The notes beneath the pieces are model-generated. The model was given only the letters and a program-made list of their open reading frames with translations. It was not told the origin of the DNA and did no database searches. From a virus, in IMG/VR virus record IMGVR_UViG_3300030331_000046, positions 453-25,848 of that record: DNA of 25,396 nucleotides. The stretch is one strand, 5' to 3'. A program made the position numbers and the translations under genes. Below, one piece after another: positions 2,855 to 18,292 of the stretch. Each line of letters opens with the position of its first letter. The first letter of the stretch is position 1.

Positions 2855-4297
2855 ATGCAATATAAATTTAAGACTAAACCATACTCTCACCAATTAGAAG
2901 CGTTGGAAAAATCATGGCGTAAAAAAGAATATGCTTACTTTATGGAAATGGGAACTGGTAAATCAAAAGTTCTCATAGATAATATTGCTATCCTTTATGA
3001 TAAAGGAGCTATCAATTCTGCCGTTATTGTTGCACCTAAAGGTGTCTATAGAAACTGGTTAGAAAAAGAAATACCAAGCCATATGCCAGAACATATAGAA
3101 TTTAAAACTGCTATATGGACTCCTGCACCTAATAAAAAACAAAAGAAAGATTTAATCAATATCTTTGAACCAAGTTACGGATTAAAAATTTTAATAGTAA
3201 ACGTAGAAGCGTTTAGCACAAAAAAAGGTGTTACTTTTGTAAATAAGTTTGTATTATCGCACTTATGTCTTGTAGCTGTAGATGAATCTACTACTATTAA
3301 AAACCCTAAAGCACAAAGAACGAAAAACTTAATTAAAATAGCAACTAATTCTAAATATAGAAGAATATTAACAGGCTTTCCTGTGACACGCTCACCATTA
3401 GATTTATATAGTCAATGTGCTTTTCTTAATACACATCTATTAGGTTACGGTTCTTATTATTCTTTTCAAAATAGATACGCACAAATCATGAACAGACAAT
3501 TAGGTACACACAGTTTTAGACAAGTAGTTGGTTATCAAAACTTAGAAGAACTTACTAGCTCGTTAGATTCTTTCTCTTATAGGGTATTGAAAAAAGAATG
3601 TCTAGATTTACCTGATAAAATTTATACTAAAAGAGAAGTAGAACTGACATCAGAACAAAAGAAAGTTTATAAAGAACTAGCAAAATATGCAATAACAGAA
3701 CTTGAATCACACGAAACTGTTAGTGTAACATCAATACTAACACAAATATTAAGATTACATCAGGTTGTATGTGGTTTTGTTAAACACGATAAAGGTGAAG
3801 AAGTAGAAATAAAAAACAATAGAATAGATGAACTAATTAATGTTTTACAAGAAATACAAGGTAAAACTATTATATGGGCTAATTATCAATACGATATTAA
3901 GAGAATATTAAAAACTATTCAAGGTATAACAGGAACAGATAGTGTAGCTACTTATTTTGGTGATACACCTGATGAAGAAAGACAACAAATAATACGCAGA
4001 TTTCAAGACCCTAATACTGAATTACAGTATCTTATTAGTAATGTACAAACTGGTGGTTACGGTATAACTTTAACAGAAGCTAAAAATGTAATTTATTATA
4101 GTAATAACTATGATTTAGAAAAACGTTTACAATCAGAAGACCGTGCTCATCGTATAGGTCAAACTAACAAAGTAACCTACATTGATTTAGTAGCTAAAGG
4201 AACAGTAGACGAAAAAATAGTAAAAGCCTTGCGTAATAAATTAGATTTAGCACAAGAAGTTTTAGGTGATGAAAAATGGAAAGACTGGATTAATTAA
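2855..4297 (+). CDS. SNF2-type superfamily 2 DNA helicase/translocase
   Basis: A 480-aa ATP-dependent DNA translocase with a complete two-lobe core and almost nothing else. Lobe 1: SHQLEAL (residues 11-17, the ATP-contacting Q), Walker A GTGKS (33-37), Walker B as DEST (143-146, where SNF2 proteins have DEAH/DEST) and LTGFP (172-176, motif III). Lobe 2: KTIIWANY (337-344, motif IV), TGGYGITL (399-406, motif V) and EDRAHRIGQ (428-436, motif VI with the arginine finger). Compact phage SNF2 proteins of this size usually sit in replication modules and probably remodel or unwind DNA at forks. It is the only plus-strand gene, transcribed away from the primase operon, and its stop overlaps the stop of the convergent gene by 3 nt. 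Function as an SF2 motor is certain; the precise role is inferred. Confidence 0.9.
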   Translation: MQYKFKTKPYSHQLEALEKSWRKKEYAYFMEMGTGKSKVLIDNIAILYDKGAINSAVIVAPKGVYRNWLEKEIPSHMPEHIEFKTAIWTPAPNKKQKKDLINIFEPSYGLKILIVNVEAFSTKKGVTFVNKFVLSHLCLVAVDESTTIKNPKAQRTKNLIKIATNSKYRRILTGFPVTRSPLDLYSQCAFLNTHLLGYGSYYSFQNRYAQIMNRQLGTHSFRQVVGYQNLEELTSSLDSFSYRVLKKECLDLPDKIYTKREVELTSEQKKVYKELAKYAITELESHETVSVTSILTQILRLHQVVCGFVKHDKGEEVEIKNNRIDELINVLQEIQGKTIIWANYQYDIKRILKTIQGITGTDSVATYFGDTPDEERQQIIRRFQDPNTELQYLISNVQTGGYGITLTEAKNVIYYSNNYDLEKRLQSEDRAHRIGQTNKVTYIDLVAKGTVDEKIVKALRNKLDLAQEVLGDEKWKDWIN

Positions 4298-12561: not shown

Positions 12562-12591
12562 ATTATATATCAAACAGTGTATATTATTAAA
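12562..12591 (-). promoter_or_regulatory. Possible internal promoter after the cyclase gene
   Basis: On the minus strand TATAAT (12567-12562) is preceded after 18 bp by a poor -35, TTTAAT (12591-12586), inside the end of the cyclase gene. It would start transcripts for the virion genes independently of the accessory cassette. In AT-rich DNA such a match is common, so support is weak. Confidence 0.2.
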
Positions 12592-14303
12592 GGTTTTTCT
12601 TTACCTTTTACTTTTATAGGTTTTACTGATTTTAAGTGATGACCACAATATTTTTCAGTTTCTTCGCCTATAAGTATGTTTACACCTGCTTCTTTTGTAG
12701 CTGATTCTAATCTAGCAGCAGTATTTACAGCGTCTCCGATAGCACTATAATCGAACCTAGTATCGCTACCCATATTACCAATTACAGCTTCTCCTGTATT
12801 TACGCCAACACCTATAGCTACGCCTATATCAGCTTTTTCTATATTTTCTTGTATTTCTTTAGCACATTCTACAGCTATTTGTTCATGATGTGGTAAATCT
12901 AATGGTGCGTTAAATATAGCCATCATTGCATCACCGATATATTTATCTACCATACCGTTGTATTTTTTAACAGCCTCTGATTGTATCGTGAGTGCTTTGT
13001 TCATAATCTCTGTTACTTGCTCTGGTTCTAGTTTTTCGGATAATGCAGTAAAGCCTCGTACATCTGTAAATAAAAAAGTACATCTTCTTTTTTCGCCACC
13101 CAGCTTCAATAAATCAGGGTCTTTTTGTAAACGTTTTACTTGTCTTGGGTCTAGATAATGTTCAAACTGTTTTTTAATTTCAAGACGTAATTTATATTGT
13201 TCTCTAAACCTTAAATAAAAAGCTATACTACCTGATATAAATTGACTAATTAATGTCCATGTTACATCTATTAATATACCTACGTCTATCGTGTAAGCCC
13301 CGTATAAGCCCGTTAAACCCATAGTTAGTAAACCTAGAACTAAACCCCAAGTTATCCCTAAATAACTTATAAACGCCCATACGAGCCCTACAGATACTAT
13401 AAATAGTAATAGTTCTACAGCTAACGCATAATCAGGTATATAAGGACTATCTTGTATTAATATCGATTCTGCAAGTGCTGCTTGTATTTTATGTGGCTCA
13501 ACAAGTCCAATAGGCGTAGCGATTTGCGGCATCACACCATTAGCAGTAACACCAACGAATACAAACTTTCCGTTTACATTCATTTCTTGTAAATTTGTTT
13601 GTTCAGTTTCCACCCATGATATCCATTTACGACCAAAGCTATCTGTTTTTACAGGGGGTAGTCCTCGAACAGCTATTTCTTGAACACCGTTATCGTTAGT
13701 AGTAACTATGTAAGTAGGTGTGTTTGTTAATATTTTTAATACTTGGGTACCGAATGAAGCCGACCAACCGTCAGGCGTTTTTAATAAGAGAGGGATTCTC
13801 CTAACAAGTTGGTCAACTTCTGTAGGTGCTATAGCAACTCCTTGTGCTACATCATCATACTCATAATAATTTTCTTTAATACCAGATGACATTATACCAC
13901 CAACATCTGGTCCTTTAATAACAGTTCCTACAGTTTTAGGGTATACACCGCTGTTATTTTCAAAAGTAGCTAAAACACTAGGTGCATAAGTTAAAGAACT
14001 AGCAAACCTATTATCACCACCTAGCCTGTCTGCTTGCGGAAAAGATATAACCCAACCAACACCCATTGCTCCTGCACCTAATATTTCTAATTGTATATCA
14101 GCTAAACGTTCTCTTGGTAAAGGATAACCACCTTCTTTTTCTACGTCTTCTTCAGTAATATTTAATATAACAAAATTACCGCTAGGTTCGGGTGTTTTGA
14201 TAAATGTATCAAAAGTTTTTAGTTTTATGATTTCTGTAGGAGTGCTTTGAAATAATAAAGGTAAAGATAATAAAGGTAATAATATTAAAATAAGTTTTTT
14301 CAT
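12570..14303 (-). CDS. CHASE2-domain class III adenylate cyclase
   Basis: A 577-aa inner-membrane enzyme expected to make cAMP from ATP. An N-terminal signal anchor (residues 3-18) leads into a periplasmic CHASE2 sensor (about 25-285; NFVILNITEEDV and YPLPRERLADIQLEIL are typical). Three membrane helices follow (about 292-314, 317-337, 343-364) and then a cytoplasmic cyclase domain (about 405-577). Catalytic residues are all visible: metal-binding D414 (FTDVRGFT) and D458 (VDKYIGDAM), purine-binding K454 with S520 (FDYSAIGDAVN), N527 and transition-state R531 (NTAARLES). The K plus Ser/Thr pair fits an ATP-specific class IIIb enzyme. ATG 14303 forms a TAATG junction with the FecR gene. A complete receptor cyclase is very unusual in phage DNA; the ligand is unknown, and the secreted neighbours are the obvious candidates. 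Confidence 0.9.
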   Translation of the reverse strand: MKKLILILLPLLSLPLLFQSTPTEIIKLKTFDTFIKTPEPSGNFVILNITEEDVEKEGGYPLPRERLADIQLEILGAGAMGVGWVISFPQADRLGGDNRFASSLTYAPSVLATFENNSGVYPKTVGTVIKGPDVGGIMSSGIKENYYEYDDVAQGVAIAPTEVDQLVRRIPLLLKTPDGWSASFGTQVLKILTNTPTYIVTTNDNGVQEIAVRGLPPVKTDSFGRKWISWVETEQTNLQEMNVNGKFVFVGVTANGVMPQIATPIGLVEPHKIQAALAESILIQDSPYIPDYALAVELLLFIVSVGLVWAFISYLGITWGLVLGLLTMGLTGLYGAYTIDVGILIDVTWTLISQFISGSIAFYLRFREQYKLRLEIKKQFEHYLDPRQVKRLQKDPDLLKLGGEKRRCTFLFTDVRGFTALSEKLEPEQVTEIMNKALTIQSEAVKKYNGMVDKYIGDAMMAIFNAPLDLPHHEQIAVECAKEIQENIEKADIGVAIGVGVNTGEAVIGNMGSDTRFDYSAIGDAVNTAARLESATKEAGVNILIGEETEKYCGHHLKSVKPIKVKGKEKPLIIYTV

Positions 14304-15415
14304 TAACTACTTTGTCGTATAGTGATAGTCGAATCACCACCACCATTAATTTTAATTATATTAGAAACACCGTCTTGTATCAAAATAACTGTATAAGCAT
14401 TACCAGAATTTAAATCTACTTGAACAGACTCACTTACTTTTCTACGCAAACTTATAGTCTGTCCAGTTACTATAGTTGTAATTTGTGTTTCAGTATCTTG
14501 ACCTATTAATGTGCCTGATATGTTTACACCAGTTGCAATAGGTAATTGGTCTTCATCTTCTTCTATAGCTAAAGCGTCTAATACTTTTAATAAATCCTCT
14601 AAAAAATTTACGTCAAGATAATTTATATCTAGCTCTGTAAATTCAAGATTACTATCATCTAAAAAATCTTCATTAAGATAATCAATATCTAAATCGTTGA
14701 AATCTAAAAGAGTTACTGTCTTTGTGCTTGATGTTTCTTCTTGTGTAACGTTCTCCTCTTTAGGCGGAGATACTATCAACATATTATCGATAATATCTAA
14801 CGATAAATCTAAAACTACAGGTTTAGTTGGTGCGTTTTCATAAACGTTTACCGTTGTAGCTTCATAAGGTTTATTTAATAAGACACTACCTGTAGCAGTT
14901 ACGACCTCTATTTCTCCGCTAGATAAACCAAAAGCATCAGGAAGAAGTATGATTAATGAACGACCTAGTTCGTCTACTGTAGCTGTAAAATCAGTGCCAC
15001 GAATCGCAATATTTGCAGTAGGTGTTCTTAATTTTATATTTTGTTTATCTATCAGATTTAAGTTGCCAGATATAAACCTAGCAGTGCCTAGAGCAAAATT
15101 TAATGACATTTTTGACTGACTAGGGTCAGGGTCATAGATATACTCATCTATGAGAAGCTGTGAGTGTTCTGTAAGTCTTACTATTGATTTGTCTAAAAAT
15201 GTAATAGCCATTCGACCATTAGTCGTTATGGCTTCGTCATTACTGCGTATAGGAAAATCTAAATCAGCGTCGTAAGGTTTATCTCTTACAATTTGTGCAG
15301 AACCATTTAGTTCAGATATATCTCCAATATCAGCAGCTTGTACTTGTTCCGCCGTCGTTTTGAATGACGCAAACAGTACCACTATTACCGCTAGAAAGAA
15401 TCTTGAGCCAGTCAT
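14303..15415 (-). CDS. Secreted FecR-domain protein with curlin-like C-terminal strands
   Basis: A 370-aa exported protein. A signal peptide (FFLAVIVVLFASF at residues 6-18, cleavage likely near TTA-EQ or VQA-AD) is followed by a FecR domain (about 33-180): IGDISELNGSAQIVR, AITTNGRMAITFLDKSIVRL and TPTANIAIRGTDFTATVDE are hallmark segments. There is no cytoplasmic anti-sigma domain, so it is not the iron-signalling FecR itself. An acidic region (about 235-295) contains two copies of an 18-aa unit. The last 35 residues (ILIQDGVSNIIKINGGGDST then ITIRQSS) resemble curlin repeats. It sits between the curlin-like gene, which it overlaps by 86 nt, and the CHASE2 cyclase. FecR-domain and CHASE2-cyclase genes are neighbours in some bacteria (from memory), so it may pass a signal to the cyclase's periplasmic domain. 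Confidence 0.8.
   Translation of the reverse strand: MTGSRFFLAVIVVLFASFKTTAEQVQAADIGDISELNGSAQIVRDKPYDADLDFPIRSNDEAITTNGRMAITFLDKSIVRLTEHSQLLIDEYIYDPDPSQSKMSLNFALGTARFISGNLNLIDKQNIKLRTPTANIAIRGTDFTATVDELGRSLIILLPDAFGLSSGEIEVVTATGSVLLNKPYEATTVNVYENAPTKPVVLDLSLDIIDNMLIVSPPKEENVTQEETSSTKTVTLLDFNDLDIDYLNEDFLDDSNLEFTELDINYLDVNFLEDLLKVLDALAIEEDEDQLPIATGVNISGTLIGQDTETQITTIVTGQTISLRRKVSESVQVDLNSGNAYTVILIQDGVSNIIKINGGGDSTITIRQSS
14587..14692 (-). repeat. Two-copy 18-aa repeat in the acidic region of the FecR-domain gene
   Basis: Two units, LDIDYLNEDFLDDSNLEF and (after TE) LDINYLDVNFLEDLL, with consensus L-D-I-[DN]-Y-L-[DN]-x-[DN]-F-L-[DE]-D. DNA copies have diverged, so this is an old duplication. 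Confidence 0.7.
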
Positions 15416-16046
15416 TATCTAGTGTACTCGATTGTGTAATATTAAACGTTCTAGAATTACCAGTTTGGTCTAAATAAAAATAACCACCTGCATAACCAGA
15501 ACCTGTAAAATTAACTGTATTACTATCACCGTCTACATCGACATAACTTGTACCACCGTCATAATTTATATCGAAATCAAAAGTGTTACCATCACCTTGA
15601 ATTATCCAATCTAAATCTAAAGTTGCTGCTAATGCACTCGTTCCATGGTCTAAAGTAAACGTATTAGTGCTACCTGTAACGTCTACATTGTAGTTAGAGT
15701 TATCAATACCGTAAGTGTTTGTTGGGTCGCCTTGTATAGTAAAAGTATTACTATCACCATCAAACTCGAAGAATCCTGTAATAGTATCTCCTAATATATC
15801 CCCTAAAAATTTATTAGTATCACCTATTTGGTTTATATCTAAAGTCAATGTAAGACCGTCTAAGTCTAGAGCAGTTAAAGAACCTGCAGAAGAATTTAAC
15901 CCACCTATAATATTACCTGAACCTAGTTGTTCTAAATCTATATTTGCTGTAGCACCAGATTGGTCAACATATATTTCATTATCAGCCCCGTATATCAGCG
16001 ATGCACTCGTCATCACAATCAGGCTCATCAATTTTAATAGTTTCAT
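15330..16046 (-). CDS. Secreted curlin-like repeat protein (candidate curli-system substrate)
   Basis: A 238-aa exported protein. ATG 16046 is chosen over an upstream in-frame start at 16073 because GGGAGG lies seven bases before it and a clean signal peptide follows (MKLLKLMSLIVMTSASLIYG-A). The mature chain is built of degenerate curlin-type repeats of about 20-25 residues, beta-strand then Gly/Asp/Asn turn: VDQSGATANIDLEQLGSGN (27-45), INQIGDTN (71-78), FDGDSNTFTIQG (95-106), VTGSTNTFTLDHG (123-135), IQGDGNTFDFDI (149-160), VDGDSNTVNFTG (171-182), LDQTGNSRTFNITQ (192-205). Only some units keep the Gln residues of CsgA. It ends with a Cys pair (CVIQNDGGTSTSC). The gene overlaps CsgG by 65 nt and the FecR gene by 86 nt. 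It is the likely CsgG substrate; amyloid formation is inferred. Confidence 0.75.
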   Translation of the reverse strand: MKLLKLMSLIVMTSASLIYGADNEIYVDQSGATANIDLEQLGSGNIIGGLNSSAGSLTALDLDGLTLTLDINQIGDTNKFLGDILGDTITGFFEFDGDSNTFTIQGDPTNTYGIDNSNYNVDVTGSTNTFTLDHGTSALAATLDLDWIIQGDGNTFDFDINYDGGTSYVDVDGDSNTVNFTGSGYAGGYFYLDQTGNSRTFNITQSSTLDNDWLKILSSGNSGTVCVIQNDGGTSTSC

Positions 16047-16851
16047 TTTTTTCCTCCCAAAAACCTCTATCATAACCTATTTTGACGATTTGCAAAACAG
16101 ACTCCTCTATAGCTCTTTGTAAAGCAAGAGTAGTAGGTTCGTTTTCTGCGTCCCCCATTTCTATCTCTACTAACTCTGTACCAGCTTCAATAAATCTAAA
16201 AACATCTTGTGATTGACCGTAGCTAAAAACTTGTTTACTAACTAATACATCTATTAAAACTTCACCAGTGGCTATAGATACCATACGCAATGCTACTGTA
16301 ATATTATCTACTCTATATTGCTTGCTTGTTCCTATGCCTAAATATCTAGCACCTATACCACCGCTTTTAATATTTGTATCATACCCAAGAACAGCCCCCT
16401 CCATAAGAACACCTGCAAAAAGCAAAGGCATGATAGGTTTAGGTCCATCAGTTTTTTCGTTTTGTTCTCTTGCAGAACGTATTAGTTGTCTTTCTTTTGT
16501 AAGATTATCAAGACCAACTCTTTCAGCTACTCTAAAAAATTTACCATTTGATGTATGTTTTAAACTTCTAATAAGTAAATGACTTGGTGCTTGTGTTAGT
16601 GCTGTAGAAAATAATGCAAACTCACTATTGCTTTTACGTTGTCCTGTTTGGTCTGTAAAACTATTAGGATAAACAGCAACAACAATAGGAACTTTAGGTT
16701 GCGGAACATTTAGTAGTTGTTTAGATTGTATTTCTAATATATTTGGTAAACTTTTGCCTTGTATAAGACTTTCGTCTATAGGATTAATACTACAACTAGA
16801 AAGAAAAATCGCCAATAGGCAATTGTATCTCAGTAATATTTCCATCTGCAT
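15982..16851 (-). CDS. csgG: CsgG-type curli secretion channel lipoprotein
   Basis: A 289-aa homologue of CsgG, the outer-membrane lipoprotein that forms a ninefold pore exporting curlin subunits. A lipoprotein signal ends in IFLSSC with lipidated C20. The core aligns end to end with Escherichia coli CsgG from my memory of that protein: FTDQTGQRK (65-73), RVAERVGLDNLTKERQLIR (107-125), GYDTNIKSGGIGARYLGIG (156-174), ATGEVLIDVLVSKQV (194-208), DVFRFIEAGTELVE (216-229) and IGYDRGFWE (258-266). The periplasmic constriction loop differs: where E. coli has Tyr and Asn-Phe, this protein has a one-residue-longer loop with Leu-Phe. About 24 extra acidic residues follow GFW. ATG 16851 or ATG 16845 could be the start; both overlap CsgF by 50-56 nt and neither has a clear Shine-Dalgarno, so reinitiation is likely. 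Confidence 0.92.
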   Translation of the reverse strand: MQMEILLRYNCLLAIFLSSCSINPIDESLIQGKSLPNILEIQSKQLLNVPQPKVPIVVAVYPNSFTDQTGQRKSNSEFALFSTALTQAPSHLLIRSLKHTSNGKFFRVAERVGLDNLTKERQLIRSAREQNEKTDGPKPIMPLLFAGVLMEGAVLGYDTNIKSGGIGARYLGIGTSKQYRVDNITVALRMVSIATGEVLIDVLVSKQVFSYGQSQDVFRFIEAGTELVEIEMGDAENEPTTLALQRAIEESVLQIVKIGYDRGFWEEKNETIKIDEPDCDDECIADIRG

Positions 16852-17296
16852 CAGTAATTTTTAGAGTTATGATTCCGTTTTCTATACTATATTCTATAGT
16901 GTTTCCCTCTAAGCTCAAAGTACCCTCTGTACTAGGTGTTTCACCAAACAAATTTTCTACAAGCTGTCTTGATAGTTGTGCATAGATACGTGACTCAAGA
17001 TTTCTAATAAATCTTGCTAATGTAGTGTTTTCTTTATCTCTTTCTATCTGTTCTTGTATAGCTTTTATTTCTTCTTTTATACTTAATTTACGATTAAACT
17101 CTTGGTTTTCAATAGTCAAGTAATGCGATGATGTATTAATACCGTTAAACGATGGGTTTTTAAATTTATGAGTAATAGTATCTGCTTTTAAATTAATCGC
17201 AATAATTCCAACAAATAACACAAAACCTATAAAAACTAAACCTATTGTAAGCCTATATTTTTCTAATTCTTCTTTATTAATCTTTTCTTTGGTCAT
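16796..17296 (-). CDS. csgF: CsgF-type curli assembly protein
   Basis: A 166-aa homologue of CsgF, the secreted partner that plugs into the CsgG channel and links it to the growing fibre. A 15-residue charged lead and a hydrophobic segment (16-35) form a long signal peptide, likely cut after LKA at residue 38. The mature start DTITHKFKNPSFNG (39-52) matches the E. coli CsgF N-terminus that binds inside CsgG (FRNPNFGG type). FIRNLESRIYAQL (96-108) and the end GNTIEYSIENGIITLKITDA (131-150), with DGNITEIQLPIGDF, match the CsgF helix and C-terminal strands. A charged helical insert (about 71-92) is extra. ATG 17296 is preceded by AAGGCGG; a longer frame from TTG 17314 is less likely. It overlaps the upstream membrane-protein gene by 20 nt, so the cassette is read through from the phage late operon. 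Confidence 0.88.
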   Translation of the reverse strand: MTKEKINKEELEKYRLTIGLVFIGFVLFVGIIAINLKADTITHKFKNPSFNGINTSSHYLTIENQEFNRKLSIKEEIKAIQEQIERDKENTTLARFIRNLESRIYAQLSRQLVENLFGETPSTEGTLSLEGNTIEYSIENGIITLKITDADGNITEIQLPIGDFSF

Positions 17297-17627
17297 CTCT
17301 ATCCGCCTTTGCAATTTTATTACTATCTATTAAATTAGGCACACCTAATATTGTTTTAATTAAAGTGTCTTGTCTAATTATCTCATTATCTAAACTACGC
17401 ACTCTATCTATCAAAGCTACTAAAATTCCATGTTGTGTATCTAATTTAGTCCCTAATCTTTCTTCTATAGCGTTTATCTGTCCTGCTACTTTTTCGTCTA
17501 CAACATCTAGTTTTTGTTCCATACCGTCAACAATCCTGATAACAAGTTTATAAATAAACCAACCTAGACCTATAGCAGCAGCTATCGGGAAACCAACTTC
17601 TTGTATTAAAGTTACTGCTTGTTCCAT
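17277..17627 (-). CDS. Small membrane-anchored coiled-coil protein, possible holin-like
   Basis: A 116-aa protein with one N-terminal membrane helix (VGFPIAAAIGLGWFIYKLVI, residues 11-30) followed by a charged coiled coil (about 32-100) containing KLDVVDEKVAGQINAIEERL and GILVALIDRVRSLDNEII. Proteins with this EVGFPIAA...helix-coiled coil layout are frequent near lysis genes of marine phages and are sometimes called holins without proof. The lysozyme at 19616-20059 has no signal peptide and so needs a holin; this is one of two candidates. The start forms a TAATG junction with the nuclease gene, and its end overlaps csgF by 20 nt. Confidence 0.55.
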   Translation of the reverse strand: MEQAVTLIQEVGFPIAAAIGLGWFIYKLVIRIVDGMEQKLDVVDEKVAGQINAIEERLGTKLDTQHGILVALIDRVRSLDNEIIRQDTLIKTILGVPNLIDSNKIAKADRDDQRKD

Positions 17628-18007
17628 TAATAATCACCCCAGATTTTAGTTTTTTTACCTCCATCATAGTGGACTGCATGCCCTTCTTTTATTAAGACAT
17701 CACAAATATCTCTACCGTCTTCCGTATAAGGTATTCCAAGTATTCTGCCGTACTTACCTTTTCCTAAAGATTTAACTTGTATTTTACCAATACATAGTTC
17801 TTTTAATCTTTCTTTTGCAGCTAGACCGAGTTTCTTTTCTGCTAAATCTCTTGTTCTAGATTCAGGTGTATCTATACCCGCAAGTCTAACACGTTGTTTA
17901 TGTAATTTTACATCGAACCCTAAATCTAAAGTACAGTCAAAAGTATCGCCGTCAACTATACGTTCTAATGTTGCATTGTATACAAATGATTCTGGTGCTT
18001 TAGCCAT
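17627..18007 (-). CDS. Thermonuclease-type (SNase-like) nuclease
   Basis: A 126-aa single-domain staphylococcal-nuclease homologue that should cut DNA and RNA with calcium. All active-site residues of the family are in place: VDGDT with D21, RLAGIDTPE with R41, D46 and E49, and KYGR with R88; the closing helix (DVLIKEGHAVHY) is also normal. There is no signal peptide, so it should act in the host cytoplasm, perhaps degrading host nucleic acid for nucleotides, or in the virion. The start follows the upstream stop directly (TAAATG) and its stop overlaps the next ATG (TAATG). Confidence 0.88.
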   Translation of the reverse strand: MAKAPESFVYNATLERIVDGDTFDCTLDLGFDVKLHKQRVRLAGIDTPESRTRDLAEKKLGLAAKERLKELCIGKIQVKSLGKGKYGRILGIPYTEDGRDICDVLIKEGHAVHYDGGKKTKIWGDY

Positions 18008-18292
18008 TTAACACTTCCATCTTCTTCTAGCTTGTCTCAATCTTGAATTAGGGTTTTTTGCAGCTTTAGGAAATTTTTTCATTTGACCTGCGGAACGTGC
18101 ACAAAATGATTTACGTCTTTTTGCTGCTTTACTACCTTTTTTAACTTTACCTGTCACTGCTGTTTTCAACTTACTTCCAGGATTCATACGTCTATACGCT
18201 TTAACTCCTGCCGCAGTCATACCAGCACCTTTTTTAGTAGGTCTAAAATTCTTTTTATTTCTTTTAGGCATTTTAGCCTTTTTTCTTGGCAC
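18008..18292 (-). CDS. Small Lys/Arg-rich marine-virus protein (KLKTAVTGKVK family)
   Basis: A 94-aa very basic protein of unknown function. The segment AAGVKAYRRMNPGSKLKTAV (about residues 27-46) and the following GKVKKGSKAAKRRKSFCARS, ending in ARRRWKC, mark a small family I recognise from many marine phages and large viruses (possibly the one called DUF6321). Conserved cysteines (SFCARS and the terminal Cys) might bind zinc. Start: GTG 18292 has an excellent AAGGAG five bases upstream; ATG 18271 just after the upstream stop is an alternative that would remove seven residues. Likely nucleic-acid binding from charge alone. Confidence 0.7.
   Translation of the reverse strand: MPRKKAKMPKRNKKNFRPTKKGAGMTAAGVKAYRRMNPGSKLKTAVTGKVKKGSKAAKRRKSFCARSAGQMKKFPKAAKNPNSRLRQARRRWKC

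Follow-up and report, generated by a model that had tools for sequence, protein, structure and literature searches.

A phage cassette of curli-type export genes and a FecR-CHASE2 cyclase pair, retained across phage lineages

Why should a phage carry, among its late genes, the pore of a curli-type secretion system together with a receptor cyclase, and do these genes act as one? The question is raised by a stretch of 25,396 nucleotides (the window) that makes up most of a 25,848-bp IMG/VR virus record (IMGVR_UViG_3300030331_000046, positions 453 to 25,848). At 12570-17296, on the minus strand, it carries five overlapping open reading frames (ORFs) in the order CsgF, CsgG, curlin-like protein, FecR-domain protein and CHASE2-cyclase. 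The original prediction, made from the letters alone, had described five co-directional, overlapping genes in a phage late region; the arrangement was borne out by the ORF coordinates, and the setting by tail spike, endolysin and virion-protein neighbours. The five assigned identities also held, through Pfam for CsgF, CsgG, FecR and the CHASE2-cyclase, and through a structure-model match for the curlin-like protein. The analysis gave three new results, i.e., that co-retention of the five genes across phages is essentially complete, that the pairing of FecR with CHASE2 is bacterial and independent of curli, and that putative SAR11 hosts have no class III cyclase of their own and, with few exceptions, no domain for binding cyclic nucleotides. 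We are confident that the five genes are one functional unit, while the proposal that this unit is a curli-type export module in which FecR reports assembly to CHASE2 is one to which we give roughly even odds (about 0.5).

Co-retention and make-up of the cassette

Among a close set of 158 loci, nearly all of them close IMG/VR relatives of the window lineage, no testable adjacency among the five genes was broken (for example, FecR to adenylyl cyclase in 112/112 and CsgF to CsgG in 110/110). A distant set of 159 loci was found with the CsgG of phage HTVC008M and the cyclase of phage Melnitz; where there was enough flank, all five genes were present at 29 of 29 CsgG loci and at 25 of 25 cyclase loci (54 testable, with contigs possibly shared between the two counts). 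The set was intact even where the cyclase came first (L347, L354) or had flipped to the opposite strand (L321, L443). Because the five genes stay together after shuffling, they were likely selected as a set, and they behave as the single unit that had been predicted: the search of viral contigs proposed with that prediction did not find the genes apart in any testable distant locus. A simple tally of loci with CsgG no more than 3 kb ahead of the cyclase was discarded, because a second curlin gene shifts the cyclase further off.

Cassette-bearing phage contigs had also been binned into metagenome-assembled genomes (MAGs) labelled Maricaulis, Neomarinimicrobiota, Flavobacteriaceae, Rhodobacteraceae and Pelagibacter (L161-L167; G340:C11; G006:C1). 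Such mis-binned contigs are a source of false claims about auxiliary metabolic genes or hosts.

The five-part set had been thought unreported, a claim refuted by Wittmers et al. (2022; PMC9599517) and by the HTVC008M and Melnitz records. Earlier, csgF/csgG and a curli-associated cluster had been described in pelagimyophages (Zaragoza-Solas et al., 2020; PMC7029224). In SAR11 podo- and myophages, Wittmers et al. described modules of the form CsgF-CsgG-CsgA/B-FecR-adenylate cyclase, together with expression of the phage cassette genes in metatranscriptomes and an alphaproteobacterial origin. Their pelagiphage type VIII secretion system module, ordered (histidine kinase)-CsgF-CsgG-CsgA/B-FecR-(second CsgA/B)-adenylate cyclase and lacking CsgE, is like that of the window, except that a second curlin gene is present. 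Melnitz has the five-gene order of the window, with a cyclase 31% identical. In HTVC008M (gp011-gp019, NC_020484), the order is two genes of the TMcc family described below, CsgF, CsgG, curlin-like, FecR, curlin 2 and cyclase; unlike the window phage, it is a myophage, its cyclase is 36% identical and it has an extra PA14-curlin gene, gp018. The window cassette is another member of this reported set, distant from the isolates and without the second curlin gene. In the main text of Wittmers et al., CHASE2 is not named, and FecR, histidine kinase and cyclase are seen as foreign to bacterial curli operons; the FecR-CHASE2 pairing in bacteria is not noted there.

Two features of type VIII secretion are present in the window, i.e., a CsgG pore, residues 13-271 of which align to E. 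coli CsgG structures (E = 2e-48), and a CsgF with a CsgG-binding N-terminus. In the latter a signal sequence is followed by ADTITHKFKNPSFNG, which aligns with the N-terminal stretch by which mature E. coli CsgF plugs into CsgG, although the profile match of this segment to CsgF residues 6-44 in PDB 6l7a is weak (E = 0.15). A search of 14 related phage records, the whole of HTVC008M and Melnitz among them, found no CsgE gate (PF10627; the window record lay outside this search), and CsgC and CsgD had no match among the window proteins scanned. The window shares CsgG and CsgF homologues with the E. coli curli (csg) system, but its curlin repeats are degenerate, and a FecR protein and a CHASE2 cyclase are added. 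A csgG homologue is also encoded by OR851715.1 (1,499 bp, 'Salmonella phage S.Kent 1-2-1'), a short fragment that is possibly bacterial chromosome.

The curlin-like protein scored below the curated cut-off for Curlin_rpt PF07012 (16.5 bits, E = 0.008; cut-off 20.7). Of the curlin repeat, Sx5QxGxxNxAx3Q, it shows the QxGxxN core in two copies (versus 0.1 in shuffles). Its structure model is all-beta, with a predicted local distance difference test score (pLDDT) of 83, and in BFVD it matches phage proteins carrying the annotation 'Curlin associated' (probability 1.00, TM-score 0.71), so that the label "curlin-like" holds despite the Pfam score. The model had no match in the PDB at E<=0.001, and neither the curlin-like nor the FecR sequence profile had a convincing match there. 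In HTVC008M, gp018 (L159:5583-6908), annotated as hypothetical, joins a PA14 domain to curlin repeats and is a candidate phage-encoded adhesin.

The FecR protein has a signal-like segment at its N-terminus, is acidic in the middle and carries a curlin-like repeat at its C-terminus. The repeat, which had been noticed in the original prediction, is QxGxxN followed by a final Q; in 116 of 126 relatives, QxGxxN falls within the final 45 residues. In the alignment, the N-terminus has the signal-like segment alone and no cytoplasmic domain. In the FecI/FecR regulatory system, FecR is an anti-sigma regulator in the inner membrane, encoded next to the sigma factor FecI; Pfam matched no sigma factor among the 20 window proteins scanned, smaller ORFs lying outside that scan. 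In the cyclase, D414, D458, D524 and R531 were invariant in 133 sequences; K454 was present in 132 (the remaining one being unresolved) and N527 in 131, the other two carrying N527S. Judged by these residues, the CHASE2 protein is a class III adenylyl cyclase with predicted metal, substrate and transition-state residues intact.

FecR beside CHASE2 in bacteria

Of 190 alphaproteobacterial genomes sampled, 88 had CHASE2 genes. We examined 39 loci, 38 from this sample and one from a Neomarinimicrobiota MAG. A FecR-domain ORF lay near 23 of the 39 CHASE2 genes, against none in 800 kb of control DNA taken largely from the same genomes and searched with the same profile; at about eleven of the 23, FecR was directly upstream and co-directional. 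FecR was also the most frequent Pfam family among 79 sampled CHASE2-neighbour ORFs (13, versus 2 for the runner-up). The effectors of the 39 bacterial CHASE2 proteins include cyclase, histidine kinase, SpoIIE and EAL. Since FecR stands beside CHASE2 in bacteria without curli, the pairing appears to belong to the input of CHASE2 rather than to curli. The window has the same pair, with the gene for an exported FecR-domain protein next to that for CHASE2. A C-terminal F/W, tried as a test for outer-membrane barrels among CHASE2 neighbours, was uninformative (6/107). One CHASE2-locus protein (A11 members) has a caspase-like Peptidase_C14 domain.

CHASE2 was also found, outside phage contigs, in nine of 99 genomes of the family of the MAG labelled Candidatus Pelagibacter (loci L472-L480; genomes G344, G106, G356, G376, G333, G310, G371, G336 and G328). 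We refer to this family as SAR11 on the basis of MAG labels, and SAR11 is a putative host of the window phage. At these nine loci, FecR was present in seven and an outer-membrane-barrel-like protein in six, and the effector was SpoIIE in the sole locus scanned by Pfam.

Near csgFG in Amylibacter and in three more of the sampled alphaproteobacterial genomes, neither FecR nor CHASE2 was matched. A search of genome contigs says little on bacterial curli, because it returned mostly MAG-binned phage contigs; the only bacterial-looking matches, in Amylibacter (L168) and Ascidiaceihabitans (L169), had neither FecR nor CHASE2 near csgFG.

In Sinorhizobium meliloti, CHASE2 cyclases respond to the outer-membrane barrel NsrA, which passes the signal, and the cyclase CyaD1 (SMc02176) adjoins the FecR protein SMc02177 (PMC13001267, PMC5498481). 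This system is like that of the window in that a CHASE2 cyclase lies next to a FecR-domain gene and is linked to an outer-membrane barrel; unlike the window, it has no curli and signals via Clr, a CRP-type receptor that is mostly lacking in the putative SAR11 hosts. A biofilm operon of Burkholderia contains a LysM-FecR protein and a CHASE2 kinase, and the signals recognised by CHASE2 were called unknown in 2016 (PMC5192318). The FecR-CHASE2 pairing offers a testable partner for CHASE2.

A possible relay and its rivals

We propose that the module has two parts, a reduced type VIII (curli-type) secretion apparatus and a FecR-CHASE2 sensor pair derived from bacteria. CsgG would form the outer-membrane pore and CsgF its cap, and the pore would be ungated, because CsgE was not found in the related records. 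The exported cargo would be the curlin-like protein and possibly, or even probably, FecR. The latter may span or sample the periplasm, with its curlin-like tail joining or probing the curlin assembly; it would sense the state of export or assembly and tune the CHASE2 cyclase of the inner membrane, which would produce cAMP in the cytoplasm. The most plausible gain for the phage would be a change at the host cell surface during late infection, e.g., a block to superinfection. The observations beneath this proposal are the genes and their domains, the intact catalytic residues, the co-retention and the bacterial pairing of FecR with CHASE2 without curli.

Several points weigh against such a relay. 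In the original prediction the assembly was sensed by CHASE2 and reported as cAMP; the link between FecR and CHASE2 is backed by the independent bacterial pairings, but the cAMP has no evident recipient, because no domain binding cyclic nucleoside monophosphates (cNMPs) was found in 95 of the 99 SAR11-family genomes or in any of the 14 phage records, the whole of HTVC008M and Melnitz included. Of the four exceptions, two match in open frames of 870-1000 amino acids (aa), and the two fully read stretches of G006 are ABC transporters. A class III cyclase exceeded the cut-off in just two SAR11-family genomes, in both cases on cassette-bearing phage contigs, and these two contigs also gave the sole CsgG matches in the family. 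From their gene content, the hosts, if SAR11, would appear to have no known cAMP reader. As they seem to be without a cyclase as well, the phage may bring in a second messenger otherwise unused there. Cassettes of this kind occur widely in phages of the ocean whose hosts are among the most abundant bacteria. In S. meliloti, loss of the FecR protein SMc02177 was without effect on perception of the plant signal tested (PMC13001267, PMC5498481). Fibre formation is doubtful, because the better of the two curlin genes in related myophages, the second (PA14 plus curlin in HTVC008M), is missing from the window lineage, and clumping of infected cells, suggested in the original prediction, was looked for with Melnitz and none was seen (PMC9004378). 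Finally, the structure model of FecR (pLDDT 49) was too poor for use, and the models are of single chains only.

The cassette can also be read in other ways. It might comprise two merely adjacent modules, one exporting curli for surface change and the other, FecR-CHASE2, sensing envelope stress or the state of infection. This would agree with the bacterial FecR-CHASE2 pairs that occur without curli, and with the csgFG genes of Amylibacter and the three other alphaproteobacteria, which have no such pair nearby. We nevertheless consider it rather unlikely, because the parts never separate in the 54 testable distant phage loci, rearranged ones included, and because FecR itself bears a curlin-like repeat. 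Control of lysis timing has been put forward for Melnitz (PMC9004378): CsgG/CsgF would be a gated secretin or a pinholin-like pore, TMcc a holin-like partner, and cAMP and curlin side products. The cassette does lie between the endolysin and the late virion genes, and single TMcc members have weak matches to holin PHROGs (E = 1e-4 and 0.0056). However, CsgG is located in the outer membrane, and the Melnitz paper states that fibre genes are absent, yet curlin repeat genes are annotated in the Melnitz record. Nor does lysis timing account for curlin, FecR and a cyclase with its catalytic residues intact, none of which is missing from any testable distant locus, and we regard it as improbable. 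More improbable still is that infected cells use the CsgG/CsgF pore to take up nutrients or cofactors, rather than for export. This was suggested in PMC7029224 and PMC9599517, and the failure to find the CsgE gate in the 14 phage records would suit it; it leaves curlin, FecR and the cyclase unexplained, and CsgF and its CsgG-binding segment are conserved.

A wider form of the export-and-reporting relay can be put forward only tentatively, and we doubt it more than we credit it. FecR-CHASE2 could be a general cross-envelope relay in which FecR reads an outer-membrane machine, either a barrel or a secretion pore, and drives interchangeable CHASE2 effectors (cyclase, kinase, SpoIIE phosphatase or EAL), and which phages have captured, wired to curli and used to send cAMP into hosts without cyclase or CRP. 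If so, a new cAMP target must exist in such hosts.

A sixth gene and the surroundings

The gene upstream of csgF encodes a member of TMcc, a family of ~80-120 aa with one transmembrane (TM) segment and a coiled coil. TMcc adjoins CsgF in 93 of 93 testable close loci, is kept but relocated behind the cyclase in several rearranged loci, and belongs to the cassette as a sixth member. It is mostly single in the window lineage, whereas HTVC008M and Melnitz have a pair of copies ahead of csgF; outside the window, the family lies at L159:1845-2407 (HTVC008M) and L160:2210-2848. Wittmers et al. reported one or two short 'histidine kinases' ahead of csgF (PMC9599517), and position and copy number suggest that TMcc is probably this gene. 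We rejected a histidine-kinase reading of it, as HisKA/HATPase domains had no match in 15 TMcc members. The original prediction had overlooked this membrane gene as a cassette member, and also the absence of a second curlin gene. An SNase gene lies next to TMcc in 99 of 101 close loci and is not listed at that place in HTVC008M; it probably stands outside the cassette mechanism.

Table 1. Positions in the window of the cassette genes and the adjoining nuclease gene
Feature	Position	Strand	Evidence and remarks
SNase-like nuclease, upstream neighbour	17627..18007	-	Pfam PF00565, 3.5e-14
TMcc, 116 aa	17277..17627	-	one N-terminal TM segment, coiled coil, conserved LIDRxRxLDN motif
CsgF	16796..17296	-	Pfam PF10614, 6e-17; ATG start, TTG at 17314 likewise open
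CsgG outer-membrane pore lipoprotein	15982..16851	-	Pfam PF03783, 4e-47; lipobox LSSC
Curlin-like exported protein (predicted)	15330..16046, ORF to 16073	-	PF07012 under cut-off; QxGxxN repeats; structure model
Secreted FecR-domain protein (predicted)	14303..15415	-	Pfam PF04773, 8e-10; hydrophobic N-terminus
CHASE2 receptor adenylyl cyclase	12570..14303	-	Pfam PF05226, 4e-22, and Guanylate_cyc PF00211, 1.5e-20

The phage late genes around the cassette encode an endolysin, a virion 'stabilization' protein (phrog_3287), an S74 tail spike, the SNase and a DNA-ejection-like protein, and a virion protein of the window is 33% identical to its counterpart in HTVC027P. Ahead of the cassette, at 18008-18292 and in its neighbours to 19531, there is a run of small, very basic proteins, one of them DUF6321, which are perhaps DNA-binding virion proteins. 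At 1-939 and 2855-4297, the window encodes an AEP-type (archaeo-eukaryotic) primase related to TOTE and an SNF2 helicase, the latter being its sole long plus-strand gene.

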